A stretch of 56,743 nucleotides of DNA from NCBI GenBank assembly GCA_947445225.1, contig CANFCX010000004.1, positions 1-56,743 on the forward strand, in the 5' to 3' direction. Of this stretch, positions 3,317-45,322 are shown piece by piece. The position numbers and the translations under genes are program-made. The first letter of the stretch is position 1. Every line of letters begins with the position of its first letter. The notes beneath the pieces are model-generated. The model ran no database searches and was not told where the DNA came from. It saw only the letters and a list, made by a program, of their open reading frames with translations. The DNA comes from Rhodospirillales bacterium. GTDB lineage: Bacteria; Pseudomonadota; Alphaproteobacteria; CACIAM-22H2.

Positions 3317-4552
3317 ATGAAACGCATCGTCGCAATCCTCGCATTGTTGTTCCTCGCGGCGGAAGCGCGGGCCGATTTCGCCGCCGGAATGGCCGCTTAT
3401 CAGGCGGGCAATCACGCCGCCGCCCTCGCCGAGTGGCAGCCCCTGGCCGAAACCGGCAACGCCAACGCTCAGTACATGCTCGGCCGCCTTCATGCCCGCG
3501 GCGAAGCGGTGGCCAAGGACATCGAAGCCGCGGCGAAATGGTTTGCCAAGGCCGGCGACCAGGGCATCGTTGATGCCCAAGTCTATCTCGCCCGCCTTTA
3601 CGACAAGGGTGATGGCGTTCCCCGCGACGAGGCGCAGGCGGCCAAATGGTATCGGCTGGCGGCCGAGGCCGGCATCCCCGAGGCCCAATACCGAATCGCC
3701 CAAATCTACGACCAGGGTATCGGAATCCGCGTCGATCGCGGCGAGGCCGCCCGCTGGTATCGCCAGGCCGCCGACGCCGGCTCGGGCGAGGCGCAATACC
3801 GTTTGGGTCGTATCCACGAGGCCGGCGAGGGCGTGCGCGAAGACCTCGCCGAAGCCGCCAAATGGTATCTGAAAGCCGGCGAACAGGGCGCCGCCGACGC
3901 CCAATACCGAATCGCCCGCCTCTACGAGCGTGGCACCGGAGTCGCCCGCGACGAAGCCGCGGCCACGAAATGGTATCGCGCCGCCGCCGCCGGCGGTATC
4001 GCCGATGCCCAGTACCAGGCGGCCAAACGCCTCGCCGCCGGCCTGGGCGCGCCGGCCAACGAAGCCGAAGCCTCGCGTTGGTATCTGGCCGCCGCCGCCA
4101 AGGGCATCGTTGATGCCCAGTTCCAGATCGCGCGGCGTTTTGAAAACGGTATCGGCGTCGAACGCAGTTTCGAAGACGCGGCCAAATGGTACAAACCGGC
4201 GGCCGAGCAGGGCATCACCGAAGCCGAATACGCGATCGGCCGATTCTACGCCGCCGGTCTGGGCGTGGCCGCCAACGATTCCGAGGCCGCGAAATGGCTG
4301 GCCCGGGCCGCCGACAAGGGCGTCGTCAACGCCCAATTCATGATGGGATTCGTCGCCTTCAACGGCCGCGGCGCGCCGCGCGACAATGTTCAGGCCTATG
4401 TCTGGTACACGCTGGCCGCCAGAAACTTTCCCACCGAAGCCGAACGCACCGTCGCCATCAAAGACCGCGACACCGTCGCCAAGCTGATGTCGCCCGAACA
4501 GGTCCAGCGGGCTCAGTTGATCGCCCGCGACTGGAAGCCCAAGCCGCAATAA
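3317..4552 (+). CDS. Secreted Sel1-repeat (SLR/TPR-like) protein
   Basis: 411 residues with a clean signal peptide (residues 1-19, ending AEARA) and then an almost unbroken solenoid of about ten 36-residue Sel1 repeats. The recurring pattern is A-A-K-W-Y-x-x-A-A-E-x-G-x-x-x-A-Q-Y-x-x-x-x-x-Y-x-x-G-x-G-V. Such solenoids are protein-protein scaffolds; bacterial examples act in the periplasm in envelope assembly or signalling. No enzymatic domain is present. A GAAGGA SD precedes the ATG. A second Sel1 protein, fused to a protease, lies at 43652. Partner unknown. Confidence 0.85.
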   Translation: MKRIVAILALLFLAAEARADFAAGMAAYQAGNHAAALAEWQPLAETGNANAQYMLGRLHARGEAVAKDIEAAAKWFAKAGDQGIVDAQVYLARLYDKGDGVPRDEAQAAKWYRLAAEAGIPEAQYRIAQIYDQGIGIRVDRGEAARWYRQAADAGSGEAQYRLGRIHEAGEGVREDLAEAAKWYLKAGEQGAADAQYRIARLYERGTGVARDEAAATKWYRAAAAGGIADAQYQAAKRLAAGLGAPANEAEASRWYLAAAAKGIVDAQFQIARRFENGIGVERSFEDAAKWYKPAAEQGITEAEYAIGRFYAAGLGVAANDSEAAKWLARAADKGVVNAQFMMGFVAFNGRGAPRDNVQAYVWYTLAARNFPTEAERTVAIKDRDTVAKLMSPEQVQRAQLIARDWKPKPQ

Positions 4553-4608
4553 GACCAACGGCCGGTAGCCCGGCCCGCCCGCCAACACCGACAACAGGGG
4601 ATGAGAGA

Positions 4609-5028
4609 ATGAAAGCGCGCATCAAATGGGTCGAGAACCGCGTGTTCGTCGGCGAATCCGGCAGCGGCCATGCCATCATCTGCGGCACCTCGCACGAAGG
4701 CAGCCCCCAAATCTGCGCGAGCCCGATGGAGGTTTTGTTGATCGGCGTCGGCGCTTGCACCGCCTATGACGTGGTGCACATCCTGGAGAAATCGCGTGAG
4801 CCGATTTCCGACTGTTCGGTCGAGTTGGACGCCGAGCGCGCCACCGAAGACCCAAAAGTCTTCACCAAGCTGCATATCCATTTCGTGGTCAAGGGCAAGG
4901 GCCTGAGCCCGGCCAAGGTGGAGCGCGCGGTGAAGCTGTCGGCCGAGAAATACTGCTCGGCCTCGGCGATGGTCGCCAAGACCGCGACCATCACCCATGA
5001 TTTCGAGGTCGTTGGCGATACCGCCTGA
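4609..5028 (+). CDS. OsmC/Ohr-family peroxiredoxin-like protein
   Basis: 139 residues, the normal length for the family. The two family cysteines are visible: Cys50 in VGACTAYDV and Cys116 in KYCSAS. OsmC-type proteins reduce organic hydroperoxides in the cytoplasm through these cysteines, and this one most resembles the YhfA-like subgroup whose substrate is uncertain. The ATG at 4609 has an AGGGGATGAG SD region. An overlapping ATG at 4601 opens only a two-codon frame. It lies 56 bp after the Sel1 gene and 15 bp before the channel gene, so it may be cotranscribed with both. Confidence 0.85.
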   Translation: MKARIKWVENRVFVGESGSGHAIICGTSHEGSPQICASPMEVLLIGVGACTAYDVVHILEKSREPISDCSVELDAERATEDPKVFTKLHIHFVVKGKGLSPAKVERAVKLSAEKYCSASAMVAKTATITHDFEVVGDTA

Positions 5029-5043
5029 TCGCGGCCGGCGCCG

Positions 5044-5493
5044 ATGATCTCCAATCTTGCGCTCGCCACCGCCATGGTCTGTGCGACCGTCGGCGTCCAT
5101 TTCGGCGGCCTGCTCATCTTGATGCGCATCCTGCGGTTTCGCGGACACCGCTTCCGCGCGCAGGAAAGCGTCGTCGGACAGGGCGCGCTCATCGTCAGTG
5201 TCGTGCTCGGCATCGTCGCCATCCACACCGTGGAAATCTGGCTCTATGCCCTGGTTTACCTCGCGATCGGGGCGCTCGGCGATTTCGAGACGGCGCTGTA
5301 TTTCTCGACCGTGACCTTCGCATCGCTCGGCTACGGCGACATCACGCTGTCGCCGGATTGGCGGCTGTTCGGATCGATCGAGGCGGCCAACGGATTGATC
5401 CTCTTCGCCTGGTCGACCGCGTTTTTGCTATCGGTCACGAGCCGGCTGCGCACGCTCGAACACGATTGGCTGGAGCACGACAAACCGGATTAG
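5044..5493 (+). CDS. Two-pore-domain-like potassium channel family protein
   Basis: 149 residues with three hydrophobic stretches (about 5-29, 46-75, 112-130) and a pore loop carrying the K+ selectivity filter GYGD at residues 96-99 (TFASLGYGDITL). This is the Ion_trans_2 pore fold, a minimal K+ channel of the inner membrane that would assemble as a tetramer. No RCK/TrkA-N regulatory domain follows. It begins 15 bp after OsmC and is convergent with the ABC transporter on the other strand. Confidence 0.8.
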   Translation: MISNLALATAMVCATVGVHFGGLLILMRILRFRGHRFRAQESVVGQGALIVSVVLGIVAIHTVEIWLYALVYLAIGALGDFETALYFSTVTFASLGYGDITLSPDWRLFGSIEAANGLILFAWSTAFLLSVTSRLRTLEHDWLEHDKPD

Positions 5494-5603
5494 GAACGCG
5501 CGACCGCTATCGCCCTCACCGCCGGCTGGGTCCTGGCCAAGGCGGCCGACCGCATTTCCCACATACCGGCGCCTATCGCGGCGTAGTAAAGGCGCGGCGC
5601 GCC

Positions 5604-7460
5604 CTAGCGATAGCCGGCGGCTTGAAGTTCGAACAACTCGGCGTAACGCCCGCCGGCGGCCACCAGGTCTTCATGCGCGCCGGCTTCGATGACCTTGCCG
5701 CTGTCCAGGACCAGGATGCGATCGGCCATCCGCACCGTGGAGAATCGATGCGAGATGATGACCGCCGTCTTGCCCCGGCTAAGGTCGCGGAAACGTTTGA
5801 ACACCTCGTATTCCGAGCGGGCGTCGAGCGCCGCTGTCGGCTCGTCGAGGATAAGCACGTCGGCGTCGCGCATATAGGCGCGGGCGATGGCGATCTTCTG
5901 CCATTCGCCACCCGAAAGCTCGATCCCCTCGTCAAAGCGTTTGCCGAGGGGCTGGCCATAACCCTTGGGCAGCCGCGCGACCACCAGATCGGCGAGGCTA
6001 CGCTGGGCCGCGATCCTGACGCGCTCCTGGTCGTCGGCGGCGAGGATGCGGCCCATGGCGATGTTCTCGCCAGCGGTGAAGTTGAAGCGGACGAAATCCT
6101 GGAAGATGACGCCGATATGGCTGCGGAGCTGAGCCAAATCGTATTCGCGCAAATCGTGCCCATCGAGCAGAATGCGCCCTTCGGTGGGGTCGTAGAGCCG
6201 GGCGAGCAGCTTGACGATGGTGGTCTTGCCGGCGCCGTTTTCGCCGACCAGCGCCAACACCTCGCCGGCCTTCAGCGTGAAGGCCAGGTCGCGCACGACC
6301 CAGCGATCAGAATCCGGGTAACGGAAGCTGACATTGTCGAACACGATCCCGATTCGGATCGGGCTGGGAAATGGCCTCGGGTTGGCGATGGACTTGATGT
6401 TCGGCTTGGCGTCGAAGAACGCGAACAGATCCCCCAGATACATGGTCTGCGCCGCGATCTGCGACAGCCCCAGGAGCAGGCTCTGCATCAACCCGCGCAG
6501 CCGGAGAAACGATCCGGCCAGGAAGCTCATGTCGCCGATGCTGAATTGCCCATCGACCGTGCGCCAGACGATCGCCGCATAAGCGAAGTAATAGGCGAAG
6601 GAGCCCAGCGCGGCGAAAAGCCCGCCCCATGCCGCCCGCCGCATCGCGAGCCGACGGTTGTCGCTGTAAATCTTGTCGGCGAACAGCCGGAAGCGTTCGA
6701 TGAGAAAGGCGTTGAGCCCGAACAGCTTGATTTCCTTGATCGTGTCCACGCTCGACCCGAGATAGCGGACGTAGTCGAGCTGACGGCGCTCCGGCGTGCT
6801 GGCGAAGTTGAGCCGGTAGTCCTGGGCGTTGAAATGGGTCTCGCCGAGGAAGGCCGGAACCAGCGTGAACAGCAACAGCGCGAGCAGCCACGGCGCATAA
6901 GCGAACAGGCCGGCGGCGAAGGACACGACGGTCAGCGCATCCTGCATCTGTCCGAAGACTTGGGTCAGCAGGGTCGTGCGGCTGATGACCTGGCGCCGCG
7001 CCCGCTCCAGCCCGTCCTGCTGATCGCTACGCTCGAATTGTTCGAGATCGAGGATGGCTGCGTGTTCCATGAGCAGCACGCTGGCGTGGTTGCTGTACAG
7101 CTCCGACAGCAGGCCATCGACCAGCGAACTGGCCCGCGCCAGCACGTCGGACAAGATGGCCAAGGCGAATTCGAGGCCGAGCAGCCAAGCCACGCCCAAA
7201 AGACGCCCGCTTTCAAACCAATCGCCGATCGCGTCGCCCGGCGGGGGCAGTTGGATTTGGGCCACGACCTCGTCGATGATGAGTTTGCCGACATAAAGCA
7301 TCGCCACCGGCAAGGTCGCCCGCGCCAGCCGCAGGCCAAAGCTGGCGATTGTGAGGGCCGGGCTCGCCTGCCATACCAGCGCGAACAATGCCGGTAAATG
7401 CCGGAACGCCCCGACGCGTTCGTTCAACAGCCAAGACTTTCTCGTTTTTTGGTCAGCCAT
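5604..7460 (-). CDS. ABC transporter, fused permease and ATPase (MsbA/exporter type)
   Basis: 618 residues. An N-terminal membrane domain (about 1-330, several hydrophobic helices) is fused to an ATPase domain. Walker A GENGAGKTT lies near residue 403, signature LSGGEWQ near 510, Walker B ILDEPTAAL near 537 and the switch motif ISHRFSTV just beyond. This is a half-transporter of the lipid/drug/peptide exporter type that works as a dimer in the inner membrane. The cargo cannot be predicted. Its 5' end is 62 bp from the divergent flavoprotein gene, so the two share an upstream region. Confidence 0.88.
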   Translation of the reverse strand: MADQKTRKSWLLNERVGAFRHLPALFALVWQASPALTIASFGLRLARATLPVAMLYVGKLIIDEVVAQIQLPPPGDAIGDWFESGRLLGVAWLLGLEFALAILSDVLARASSLVDGLLSELYSNHASVLLMEHAAILDLEQFERSDQQDGLERARRQVISRTTLLTQVFGQMQDALTVVSFAAGLFAYAPWLLALLLFTLVPAFLGETHFNAQDYRLNFASTPERRQLDYVRYLGSSVDTIKEIKLFGLNAFLIERFRLFADKIYSDNRRLAMRRAAWGGLFAALGSFAYYFAYAAIVWRTVDGQFSIGDMSFLAGSFLRLRGLMQSLLLGLSQIAAQTMYLGDLFAFFDAKPNIKSIANPRPFPSPIRIGIVFDNVSFRYPDSDRWVVRDLAFTLKAGEVLALVGENGAGKTTIVKLLARLYDPTEGRILLDGHDLREYDLAQLRSHIGVIFQDFVRFNFTAGENIAMGRILAADDQERVRIAAQRSLADLVVARLPKGYGQPLGKRFDEGIELSGGEWQKIAIARAYMRDADVLILDEPTAALDARSEYEVFKRFRDLSRGKTAVIISHRFSTVRMADRILVLDSGKVIEAGAHEDLVAAGGRYAELFELQAAGYR

Positions 7461-19697: not shown

Positions 19698-19784
19698 TGG
19701 TGCCCGCTGGGGGACTCGAACCCCCACCCCCTTGCGGGGAACGGATTTTAAGTCCGTTGCGTCTACCGGTTTCGCCAAGCGGGC
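19698..19784 (-). tRNA. tRNA-Leu (UAA)
   Basis: 87 nt on the minus strand, with encoded CCA. Acceptor arms GCCCGCT / AGCGGGC pair, the D-arm, a long leucine-type variable arm (CCCCGCAAGGGGG region) and a TTCGAGT T-arm are present. The anticodon loop CTTAAAA gives anticodon UAA. Confidence 0.95.
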
Positions 19785-42716: not shown

Positions 42717-42803
42717 TGGTGCGGTCGAGAAGACTCGAACTTCCACGGGATTGCTCCCACAGCGACCTCAACGCTGCGCGTCTACCAGTTCCGCCACGAC
42801 CGC
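42717..42803 (-). tRNA. tRNA-Leu (GAG)
   Basis: 87 nt on the minus strand with encoded CCA. Acceptor GCGGTCG / CGACCGC pairs, long variable arm, TTCGAGT T-loop. Anticodon loop TTGAGGT gives anticodon GAG. Confidence 0.95.
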
Positions 42804-42922
42804 CAGCGCGGATCGTAGCCATGACCGATCCGCCCATCGTTCCGTCCCTGTCGCTAGATGACGCCGGGAATAGCAAATCGTCACGCCCTCCGCAAGCGGC
42901 CCAGGAGGCCACCGCGGAGAAA

Positions 42923-43609
42923 ATGACCCAGTCGCGTGACATTGAGTGGCGGATCGACGACCGGCCGGTCGATTACGCGGGCGCCGTGGCCGAAATGGAA
43001 GCGCGGGTAGCCGCCATTCGTACCGGTGAAGCGCCGGAATTGGTGTGGCTCCTGAGCCATCCGGCCCTTTACACGGCCGGGACCAGCGCCCGGCCCGAAG
43101 ATTTGATCTTGCCGGATGATCTGCCGGTGTTCCGAAGTGGCCGCGGCGGCCAGTACACCTATCACGGCCCCGGACAACGTATTGCCTATGTCCTCCTCGA
43201 TCTCGGCCGGCGCGGTCGCGACATAAGGCATTTTGTCACCGGCTTGGAGGCATGGATGATCGCCGCCTTGGATCGTTTCAACATTAAAGGGGAAAGACGT
43301 CCGGGGCGAGTTGGCATCTGGGTCGATCGCGGTGGCGGTCGCGAGGACAAGATCGGCGCGGTCGGCGTACGCATTCGGCATTGGGTGAGCTTTCACGGCC
43401 TGTCGCTCAACGTTGACCCGGACTTGCGGCATTATCGCGGTATCGTGCCCTGTGGCATCCGGCAGGATGGACGATATGGCGTCACATCGCTTACCGATCT
43501 CGGTATCCCGGTCGGCTCGGCCGAGGTCGATTCGGCTCTAATCGAGACCTTCCCCCCCATTTTTGGTGGTACGACGGCGCCGCTCTCCAAAACCGCCGCC
43601 AATTTGTGA
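42923..43609 (+). CDS. lipB: Octanoyltransferase (lipoate biosynthesis)
   Basis: 228 residues. LipB motifs: [46 protein letters not shown] with catalytic Lys, and GIVPCGI with Cys177 that forms the octanoyl thioester. It moves octanoate from acyl carrier protein onto lipoyl domains of 2-oxoacid dehydrogenases, the first step of lipoate synthesis. ATG 42923 follows GGAG by 5 nt; ATG 42821 is an alternative, just after the tRNA. No lipA nearby. Confidence 0.92.
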
Positions 43610-43651
43610 TATTATTTGCGTTGGAATTGGCTAACTCTCGGAGATGCTGAC

Positions 43652-45322
43652 GTGAAGCGAGCTGTCTGGTTCGCGATACTGTTCTTGGTCTGCTCCCCAG
43701 CAGCGGCGGGCATGAACGAAGGTGTCGCCGCGCTCCAGAAGGGGGATTACGCCACCGCCTGGCGCGAGTTTCGACCCCTGGCCGAAGCGGGCGATGCTCG
43801 AGCCCAATTCAATGTCGCCCTGCTTTACGCTGAAGGCCGCGGAACCGCCCAGAACGACGCCGAGGCGGCAAAATGGTACCGGCGATCGGCCGAACAAGGC
43901 AATGCGGCGGCCCAAAACAATTTGGGGGCGCTCTACAATCAAGGTCGCGGCGTCGACCAGAACCCCGCCGAGGCTGTGAATTGGTTCCGCAAGGCGGCGG
44001 AGCAGGGCATTTCGCAGGCGCAGCTCAATCTCGGCCTTGCCCTGATAAACGGCCGCGGCGTTACCAAGAATGCGCCGGAGGCGGCGGCATTGTTGGCGCG
44101 GGCGGCCAAACAGGGAGAGCCCAACGCGCAAAATGCGCTTGGCGCCCTCTATGAAAACGGCGACGGGCTGGAGAAAGACGCCGTTCAGGCCTATGTCTGG
44201 TTCAATCTTGCCGCTTCCCGGCTCCCAGCGGGTGCGGCGCGTGACCGTGCGACCGCCAGCCGTGACCGGGTGGTCAAGCTGCTAACCGCGGCGCAACGAG
44301 CGCAAGGCCAGCAGATCGCGGCAGCCTTCCAGCCGAAATCGGAAATCGCCAGTGTCGCCGCGCCCAGCGCGCCCGCCGCGGTCGGCCCGTCGGCCGATTT
44401 GGTCCGTTCGGTGCAGGCCATGCTCGCCGGACTCGGCTATGACCCTGGTGCCGCCGATGGCACCTTCGGCGCCAAGACACGCGCGGCCATCAGCGCCTTC
44501 CAGGAACGTGTCGCGCTGCCCGTGGATGGCCAAATCTCGACGCCCTTGCTTGCGCGGCTGCGCGACGCCGCCACCGCCGCCGGGCTCAACGTGCCGGGGC
44601 AGGCGAGTCGATCGACCGCGGTCCTTCCGCCGAACGTGCGCCCGCAACAACCGGCGACTCAGGAAAGGCCTCGAACCGCGGGCCCGACGATGACGGGCAG
44701 TGGCAGCGGCATCGTCATCAGCCGCGACGGCCACATTCTAACCAACAACCATGTCATTCTCGGCTGCCAGGAAGTGCGCGCCCGCCCGCCTGGCGCCGCC
44801 GCCGCCGTGGCCGTCGCGGTCGTCGCGTTCAACCAGGGCGACGATTTGGCCTTGCTCAAGCTGCCGTCCCCGGCGCCCGGCTTTGCGCGGTTTCGCGATG
44901 GCACGACGATCCGGGCCGGCGAAGACGTGGTTGTCGTCGGCTATCCGTTGCGCGGGCTTCTGTCGTCCGACGCCAGCGTCACCACCGGCGCGGTCAGCGC
45001 GCTGTCCGGCCTGCGCGACGACGCCCGCTATCTGCAGATCACCGCCCCGGTCCAGCCGGGCAATAGCGGTGGGCCGCTGCTCGACATGAGCGGCAGCGTC
45101 GTGGGCGTTGTTGTCAGCAAGCTTAACGCCCTCAAGATCGCCCAGACGACCGGCGACATTCCGCAGAACGTCAATTTCGCCATCAAGACGGCGACGGCGC
45201 GAAAATTCCTCGACGCCAACCGCGTGCCCTATGAAACCGCTCGCGGCGGCGCTGAAATGCGGGCGGCCGATATCGGCGATCTAGCCAGGGGCTTCACGCT
45301 GTCGGTAGAGTGCTGGAAGTAA
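43652..45322 (+). CDS. Sel1-repeat / peptidoglycan-binding / S1-type protease fusion
   Basis: 556 residues in three modules. A signal peptide (about 1-20, CSPAAAG) leads to about four to five Sel1 repeats (about 25-180, AEAAKWYRRSAEQGNAAAQNNLG type). Next is a PG_binding_1 domain (about 250-305, MLAGLGYDPGAADGTFGAKTR). Last is a trypsin-like serine protease (about 345-535) with His367 (TNNHVI), Asp398 (GDDLALLK) and Ser472 (PGNSGGP). A secreted protease anchored to peptidoglycan is the likely picture. Start GTG 43652 with GGAG upstream. The acylphosphatase gene converges on it. Confidence 0.85.
   Translation: MKRAVWFAILFLVCSPAAAGMNEGVAALQKGDYATAWREFRPLAEAGDARAQFNVALLYAEGRGTAQNDAEAAKWYRRSAEQGNAAAQNNLGALYNQGRGVDQNPAEAVNWFRKAAEQGISQAQLNLGLALINGRGVTKNAPEAAALLARAAKQGEPNAQNALGALYENGDGLEKDAVQAYVWFNLAASRLPAGAARDRATASRDRVVKLLTAAQRAQGQQIAAAFQPKSEIASVAAPSAPAAVGPSADLVRSVQAMLAGLGYDPGAADGTFGAKTRAAISAFQERVALPVDGQISTPLLARLRDAATAAGLNVPGQASRSTAVLPPNVRPQQPATQERPRTAGPTMTGSGSGIVISRDGHILTNNHVILGCQEVRARPPGAAAAVAVAVVAFNQGDDLALLKLPSPAPGFARFRDGTTIRAGEDVVVVGYPLRGLLSSDASVTTGAVSALSGLRDDARYLQITAPVQPGNSGGPLLDMSGSVVGVVVSKLNALKIAQTTGDIPQNVNFAIKTATARKFLDANRVPYETARGGAEMRAADIGDLARGFTLSVECWK

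Follow-up and report, generated by a model that had tools for sequence, protein, structure and literature searches.

A predicted secreted Sel1-PG_binding_1 serine protease with an HtrA-like fold and a C-terminal tail in place of a PDZ domain

Gene organization and domain architecture

The window analysed was a stretch of 56,743 nucleotides from a Rhodospirillales bacterium (contig CANFCX010000004.1, assembly GCA_947445225.1). Positions 43652-45322 of the + strand contained an open reading frame with a GTG start and 556 codons before the stop; the mechanical ORF list gave an upstream TTG (43616) as the start of this gene. The encoded protein comprised, in order, Sel1 repeats, a PG_binding_1 domain, an HtrA-like protease and a C-terminal tail (C-tail). 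An earlier note on this DNA had described a signal peptide, Sel1 repeats, a peptidoglycan-binding domain and a protease in one secreted chain, and this description held, with all three domains above their Pfam cut-offs and the signal peptide recognised by eye.

The putative type I signal peptide (residues 1-19, 43652-43708, + strand) was read by eye from the translation, with cleavage predicted after AAA and before G and with no lipobox; a signal peptide was also present in the genus relatives L038 and L039. Four Sel1 repeats followed on the + strand at 43796-43903, 43904-44008, 44012-44116 and 44120-44218 (43796-44218 as a whole). Pfam gave E 7.2e-35 and 118.6 bits against a cut-off of 30.7 over 4 stretches, and the four repeats exceeding the cut-off agree with the four to five counted earlier. 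Helical caps flanked the repeats in the AlphaFold2 model, where the helices ran from residues 16-29 to 213-225. The PG_binding_1 domain (residues 249-303, 44393-44560, + strand) matched Pfam at E 2.2e-15 and 57 bits against a cut-off of 23, and its closest solved chain by sequence was soluble lytic transglycosylase B3 (E 2.4e-8).

The Trypsin_2 protease domain (residues 351-486, 44702-45109, + strand; E 4e-28, above the curated cut-off) lay within an HtrA-like fold over about residues 343-526. The His-Asp-Ser triad, called complete in the earlier note, was found as His367 (44750-44752), Asp398 (44843-44845) and Ser472 in the motif GNSGGP (45065-45067), all on the + strand. Cys372 (44765-44767, + strand) stands five residues after the catalytic His and Cys554 (45311-45313, + strand) is the third residue from the C-terminus. 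The C-tail itself (residues 527-556, 45230-45319, + strand) takes the position at which the PDZ domain starts in HtrA proteases. The only cysteines of the protein were those at 14, 372 and 554; loss of the first with the signal peptide should leave just two in the mature protein.

AlphaFold2 modelling of the full chain from 86 rows gave a mean pLDDT of 89.1 and a pTM of 0.53. Residues 233-244 and 319-341 had pLDDT under 50 and were low-confidence linkers, the latter being the flexible linker at 44606-44674 (+ strand). The protein was modelled as folded bodies on flexible linkers, with their mutual arrangement predicted without confidence. The dN/dS of the window protein against each of the two genus relatives was 0.06-0.24 in the Sel1, PG_binding_1 and protease parts; together with the mean pLDDT, this indicates that the ORF and its domain chain are more than chance.

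Genomic neighbourhood

The upstream gene lipB (42824-43609, + strand; LplA-B_cat, E 3.3e-33) ended 42 bp before the GTG of the protease gene, and the two are possibly co-transcribed. A promoter scan showed two promoter-like sites, the first inside lipB some 390 bp upstream and the second on the opposite strand, and the terminator scan showed no terminator-like site on the + strand. A tRNA-Leu (gag) gene was located at 42717-42803 (- strand), directly upstream of lipB, and a second tRNA-Leu (taa) at 19698-19784.

Among the fetched loci, with flanks of up to 5 kb, the two genus relatives alone shared the surroundings made up of lipB, an acylphosphatase-like gene (labelled by eye) and PccAB, and the neighbourhood was rejected as an operon clue for this reason. 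The clusters of flanking ORFs from L038 to L117 were mostly lineage-specific, and none beyond the genus named a pathway. Two clusters crossed lineages, short-chain dehydrogenases at 12 loci and TctC-type receptors at 10 loci, each with one member confirmed by Pfam and both being very large families. A short-chain dehydrogenase ORF was close beside the core gene at L070, L081, L084, L085, L073 and L103, which are of unrelated lineages; this adjacency may be due to chance, the family being very large.

Protease core, C-terminal tail and cysteine pair

Structure comparison assigned the catalytic domain to the HtrA fold, with a DegS-type chain (5jd8) aligned over residues 344-525 (Z 22.6, rmsd 1.9, 163 residues aligned). 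No PDZ domain was found in the window protein by the Pfam scan at E 0.1, and the chain stops about 30 residues past the catalytic domain. AlphaFold2 predicted a strand (528-531), a helix (538-545) and a strand (549-555) in the C-tail, which was folded with high confidence when the core was modelled alone (pLDDT 92.9, pTM 0.90). Among the 50 PDB matches listed, alignments ended at core-model residue 189-191 of 221 and left the C-tail uncovered, and a known match may exist at a lower rank. PHROG matches were limited to shared domains. The domain order, the intact triad, the folded tail replacing a PDZ domain and the conserved cysteine pair are all computed features of this protein.

HtrA/Deg proteases (DegS, DegP, DegQ; TIGR02037) have the fold and the triad in common with the window protein, and the degP_htrA_DO model matched at E 1.6e-28, but the score of 99.8 bits was below the cut-off of 416.2. 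They also have a C-terminal PDZ domain, where the window protein has a 30-residue tail instead, with Sel1 and PG_binding_1 in front. Two defining marks of HtrA, the PDZ domain and a score above the family cut-off, were thus absent, and "HtrA-like, lacking PDZ" describes the protein better than HtrA proper.

Conservation was scored in 86 non-redundant core proteins including the window protein (6 of 92 matches were dropped as duplicates), a set that came largely from scanning with peptides of the query itself as seeds and is therefore biased to the query. The earlier note had named loss of the catalytic residues in relatives as a reason for doubt, and they were conserved: His and Asp were kept in 86/86 proteins and Ser in 85/86, while an even sample of the class had the full triad in 42/44 relatives. 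Cys372 was kept in 80/86 and Cys554 in 83/86 core proteins, and both cysteines in 40/44 of the even sample. The distance from Ser to the C-terminus was 79-87 residues in 79/86 proteins. The outliers were L051 (41, its frame ending early), L079 (311) and L094, L097, L099, L100 and L117 (189-191). The last five carried about 105 extra residues beyond the conserved Cys tail, and this added part had no Pfam match in the scanned L094, L100 and L117.

Altered triads were seen in L093 (Ser to Gly), L182 (Asp to Glu) and L183 (His to Gln and Ser to Gly). Both L183 (209-1714, - strand, QDG) and L093 (4740-7253, HDG) bear Sel1 repeats and are, judging from these residues, possible pseudo-proteases.

Over 146 rows, in which some genes are present twice from two collections and from which L051 with its early frame end was excluded, both cysteines were found in 133, neither in 8 and one in 5. 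The five single-cysteine rows (L104, L110, L112, L114 and L165) were all TerD proteins by Pfam and had no signal peptide by eye, and a TerD-bearing relative on a Pseudomonas plasmid kept the tail with neither cysteine. These TerD rows would fit a disulfide needed solely in the oxidising periplasm. Three relatives (L181, L189 and L192) had a secretion signal by eye yet neither cysteine. Two changes per cysteine sufficed on the tree. Its 2 independent pairs pointed in opposite directions, which gave the coupling of the two positions no independent support. We infer a Cys372-Cys554 disulfide that would clamp the C-tail.

Distribution of the core and its front modules

In the even class sample the core was found in at least 41 of 289 genomes at E 1e-40, and in a phylum sample in at least 17 of 299 genomes at the same threshold, with up to 10 candidates per genome scored in both. 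The class sample gave 49 matches, and removal of three partial ones (G312, G219 and G113) and of L180, which has an in-frame stop, left the window protein and 44 others.

Front modules were labelled with home-made HMMs for Sel1 and PG_binding_1, part of the set being checked by Pfam. Among the 86 core proteins, window protein included, 16 had Sel1 with PG_binding_1, 21 had Sel1 only, 16 had PG_binding_1 only and 33 had neither; the cultivable relatives Zavarzinia and Paramagnetospirillum fell into the Sel1-only class. The 45 proteins of the even sample were divided into 7 with both modules (in five genomes including that of the window), 13 with Sel1 only, 4 with PG_binding_1 only and 21 with neither; modules were under-counted in these figures, some "neither" rows being cut by contig or locus ends (e.g. 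L105, L115 and L175). Pfam scans of part of the remaining rows detected MORN fronts in L019, L150, L170, L179, L190 and L191 and TPR fronts in L084 and L192, while some scanned core proteins had no named front module. A cytochrome c domain preceded the core in L182 (2626-3756), where His-Glu-Ser stood at the aligned triad positions. In L083 the Sel1 part (4482-5639) and the PG_binding/protease part (5712-6845) were two successive ORFs, which could be a broken or a naturally split version; the locus was labelled P because its Sel1 part sits in the separate upstream ORF. Plasmid records matching the core were mostly from Pseudomonas (116/129), and one of them, L223 from a Pseudomonas aeruginosa plasmid (2452-3588), is the TerD-trypsin fusion with the tail kept and neither cysteine; its neighbours were ATP-grasp, phosphoribosyltransferase, phosphatase and StiP-family genes.

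A tree of 129 rows was built, a quick tree with long branches in which 8 pairs of zero branch length were the same genes twice. The Sel1-PG_binding label needed 8 changes on it, 3 of them forced by supported branches, which means that gain, loss or exchange of modules happened repeatedly. A single origin of the combination was rejected on these counts, gain and loss being indistinguishable. Sel1 occurred with PG_binding_1 in 21/129 tree rows (18 distinct genes without the second copies) in several parts of the tree. This recurrence bears on the view that common modules were put together by chance and have no joint function. All three modules are indeed common among bacteria, but their repeated co-occurrence in separate tree parts and the low dN/dS across all three domains make such an assembly very improbable.

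In 30/32 PG-bearing rows, no more than 75 residues separated the end of PG_binding_1 from the catalytic His, the exceptions being L092 and L102. Such closeness could let binding influence the active site, as a signalling or processing role would have it, in which PG_binding_1 senses peptidoglycan fragments or the wall state and switches the protease, and a regulator bound by Sel1 is cut rather than degraded. Periplasmic repeat proteins are contained in regulatory complexes, according to two reports (PMC10746161, PMC8980812). However, the linker between PG_binding_1 and the protease is predicted to be disordered, which is more in keeping with a tether than with a rigid switch, two PG-bearing proteins of the even sample (L166 and L172) had the domain far from the core, and no regulator gene was linked. 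Signalling is considered improbable, although less so than chance assembly.

Sel1 divergence between members of the genus

The window and L038 were 89-96% identical in 150-base bins across the gene, with a Sel1 dS of 0.24 and no jump. Against L039, identity was 87-99% over lipB, PccAB and the protease, fell to 61-76% across the signal peptide and Sel1 (43650-44399) and rose to 84% in the next bin. The dS values against L039 were 0.99 for the signal peptide, 1.54 for Sel1, 0.42 for PG_binding_1 and 0.22 for the protease, and the neighbours had 0.25 (lipB) and 0.28 (PccA and PccB). The dN/dS of the divergent Sel1 part was still low (0.14). Strong local Sel1 divergence within the genus is thereby observed alongside the diversity of front modules among relatives.

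The simplest reading of these identities is that recombination exchanged the Sel1 recognition half while the enzyme was kept. A paralog as donor of the L039 half found no support, paralogs in G001 and G002 being 41-54% identical over parts against 67% for the G001 allele, and a donor paralog may be absent from the incomplete G002 assembly. General hypervariability of Sel1 genes was not seen in two further ones from the genus, which were 82-96% identical where aligned, although the second lacked about 216 bases in G001, equal to two repeats. The divergent half is known from a single metagenome-assembled genome (L039, SHVT01000048), in which it might be a chimera of the assembly.

Strong divergence in one genus relative would also be produced by an arms race, with exchangeable fronts that recognise competitor or phage proteins in conflict or defence. 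This idea can draw on L066 (4218-5843), where Rap1a, named for immunity proteins, stands ahead of PG_binding_1 and the protease core by Pfam, on the TerD-fused relatives carried by Pseudomonas plasmids, and on a match of the protease part to the protease end of the PADLOC model RT-Protease_XI (residues 350-490 against profile positions 349-486 of 506, E 8.7e-16). That match, however, spans the shared protease domain only, and the Pfam scan found no reverse transcriptase domain in the window protein, so the protein does not qualify as an RT-Protease. PADLOC had no match in seven nearby genes, and the low dN/dS of the diverged part speaks against an arms race. A defence role is regarded as doubtful, and less probable than signalling.

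Sel1 proteins and proteases of the genome

The genome contained 11 Sel1 ORFs with 48 repeats. The stand-alone Sel1 protein pointed out in the earlier note was present at 3317-4552 and had 8 Sel1 stretches by Pfam, but a link with the protease was not supported, as it is one of the 11 and lies 39 kb away. No ortholog of it was found in G001 or G002 (best matches 44% and 41%), but one may have been missed, since the G001 contig concerned starts close to window position 4354 and completeness of G002 is 74%. Three ORFs carried PG_binding_1 at E 0.001, and two of these joined it to Sel1: the window protein and a protease-less Sel1-PG_binding_1 protein on contig C6. The latter (L197, 1247-2452) was directly followed by another Sel1 gene.

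Two DegP-like proteases with PDZ domains (L193 and L194) and a third trypsin-like protein without PDZ in Pfam (L195) were also encoded. Quality control is the role of many HtrA proteases. With its HtrA-like catalytic domain, the window protein could act as a general envelope quality-control protease whose Sel1 repeats bind misfolded proteins broadly for degradation at the wall, a role proposed in the earlier note. The two DegP-like PDZ proteases already in the genome make it less likely, the patchy occurrence of the core in the class and phylum samples also speaks against it, and the strongly varying front ends suit specific partners better. General quality control is judged unlikely, though the most probable of the alternatives weighed here.

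Proposed function

We propose, with about even confidence, that the window protein works in the periplasm as a soluble serine endoprotease and carries both a Sel1 adaptor and a wall tether in the same chain. After removal of the signal peptide, PG_binding_1 would tether the protease to peptidoglycan, and the Sel1 solenoid on its flexible linker would capture a protein partner and present it to the HtrA-like active site. This partner would most likely be an envelope or wall-acting protein, such as a wall enzyme or its regulator. The C-tail would close the catalytic domain in the place of the PDZ domain, probably through the Cys372-Cys554 disulfide, and specificity would come from the front modules instead of a PDZ domain reading substrate ends.

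Selection of partners by Sel1, as the earlier note suggested, is consistent with a Sel1 half that diverges or is replaced, and a role of the middle domain in holding the enzyme to the wall is plausible; PG_binding_1 may nevertheless act here without binding peptidoglycan. The protein would have proteolytic activity and bind peptidoglycan, and its substrates, by analogy with LbcA-CtpA and NlpI-Prc, would lie in the control of wall enzymes.

The relatives may, with slightly less confidence, be united in an unnamed HtrA-derived family in which the PDZ domain is replaced by a disulfide-latched C-tail and the front recognition modules are exchangeable, with wall-acting Sel1/PG_binding members and cytoplasmic TerD members without the complete cysteine pair. 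As part of the same tentative reading, it would be a "plug-and-play" receptor-protease family of the envelope with Sel1, PG_binding, MORN, TPR, TerD, Rap1a and cytochrome c fronts. If this is true, substrate choice would be directly testable by exchanging front halves, perhaps repeating a swap that evolution has already made in this genus, and a branch of HtrA working without PDZ would be defined. The known periplasmic proteases that control wall enzymes use separate helical-repeat adaptors; here, adaptor, tether and protease are fused.

Comparison with known systems

The literature searched, which included few subscription journals and some sources in part, contained no experiment on any family member and neither a function for nor a mention of the Sel1-PG_binding_1-trypsin order in the parts covered. 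The earlier note had held that a common architecture of known function would argue against its proposal; the architecture did recur (16/86 core proteins, 7/45 in the even sample), but no known function was found in the literature searched. A 2008 survey of prokaryotic serine proteases names a single Tryp-(Sel1)6 protein and a single TerD-Tryp protein, both with modules like those seen here joined to a trypsin-like domain; its authors report no tested function for them, and its covered parts include no Sel1-PG_binding_1-trypsin protein (PMC2605481).

A parallel in principle is the pairing of a helical-repeat adaptor with a periplasmic serine protease that acts on wall hydrolases. The TPR lipoprotein LbcA partners CtpA of Pseudomonas aeruginosa, which degrades wall hydrolases, with NlpI-Prc of Escherichia coli as a parallel (PMC6050968). 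Adaptor and protease are separate in those systems, whereas the window protein is one chain; CtpA and Prc are C-terminal processing proteases, whereas the window protein has a Trypsin_2, HtrA-like domain and is thus not such a system. PodJ of Caulobacter crescentus has periplasmic TPR and peptidoglycan-binding domains but, in the part of the report covered, is a membrane-spanning scaffold without a described protease (PMC8980812), unlike the window protein. IltA (PA3978), a periplasmic protein with secreted Sel1 repeats like those of the window protein, binds the lytic transglycosylase MltF and inhibits it, but is a small stand-alone inhibitor of 17 kDa (PMC10746161).

The trypsin-like protease MarP (NF033740) matched the window protein over residues 350-490 at E 1.2e-24, but the 87.1 bits were below the NCBIfam cut-off of 250. 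MarP is not known to have a PDZ domain and contains a disulfide. The match of the MarP chain 3k6z to the core profile stopped at position 147 of 214.
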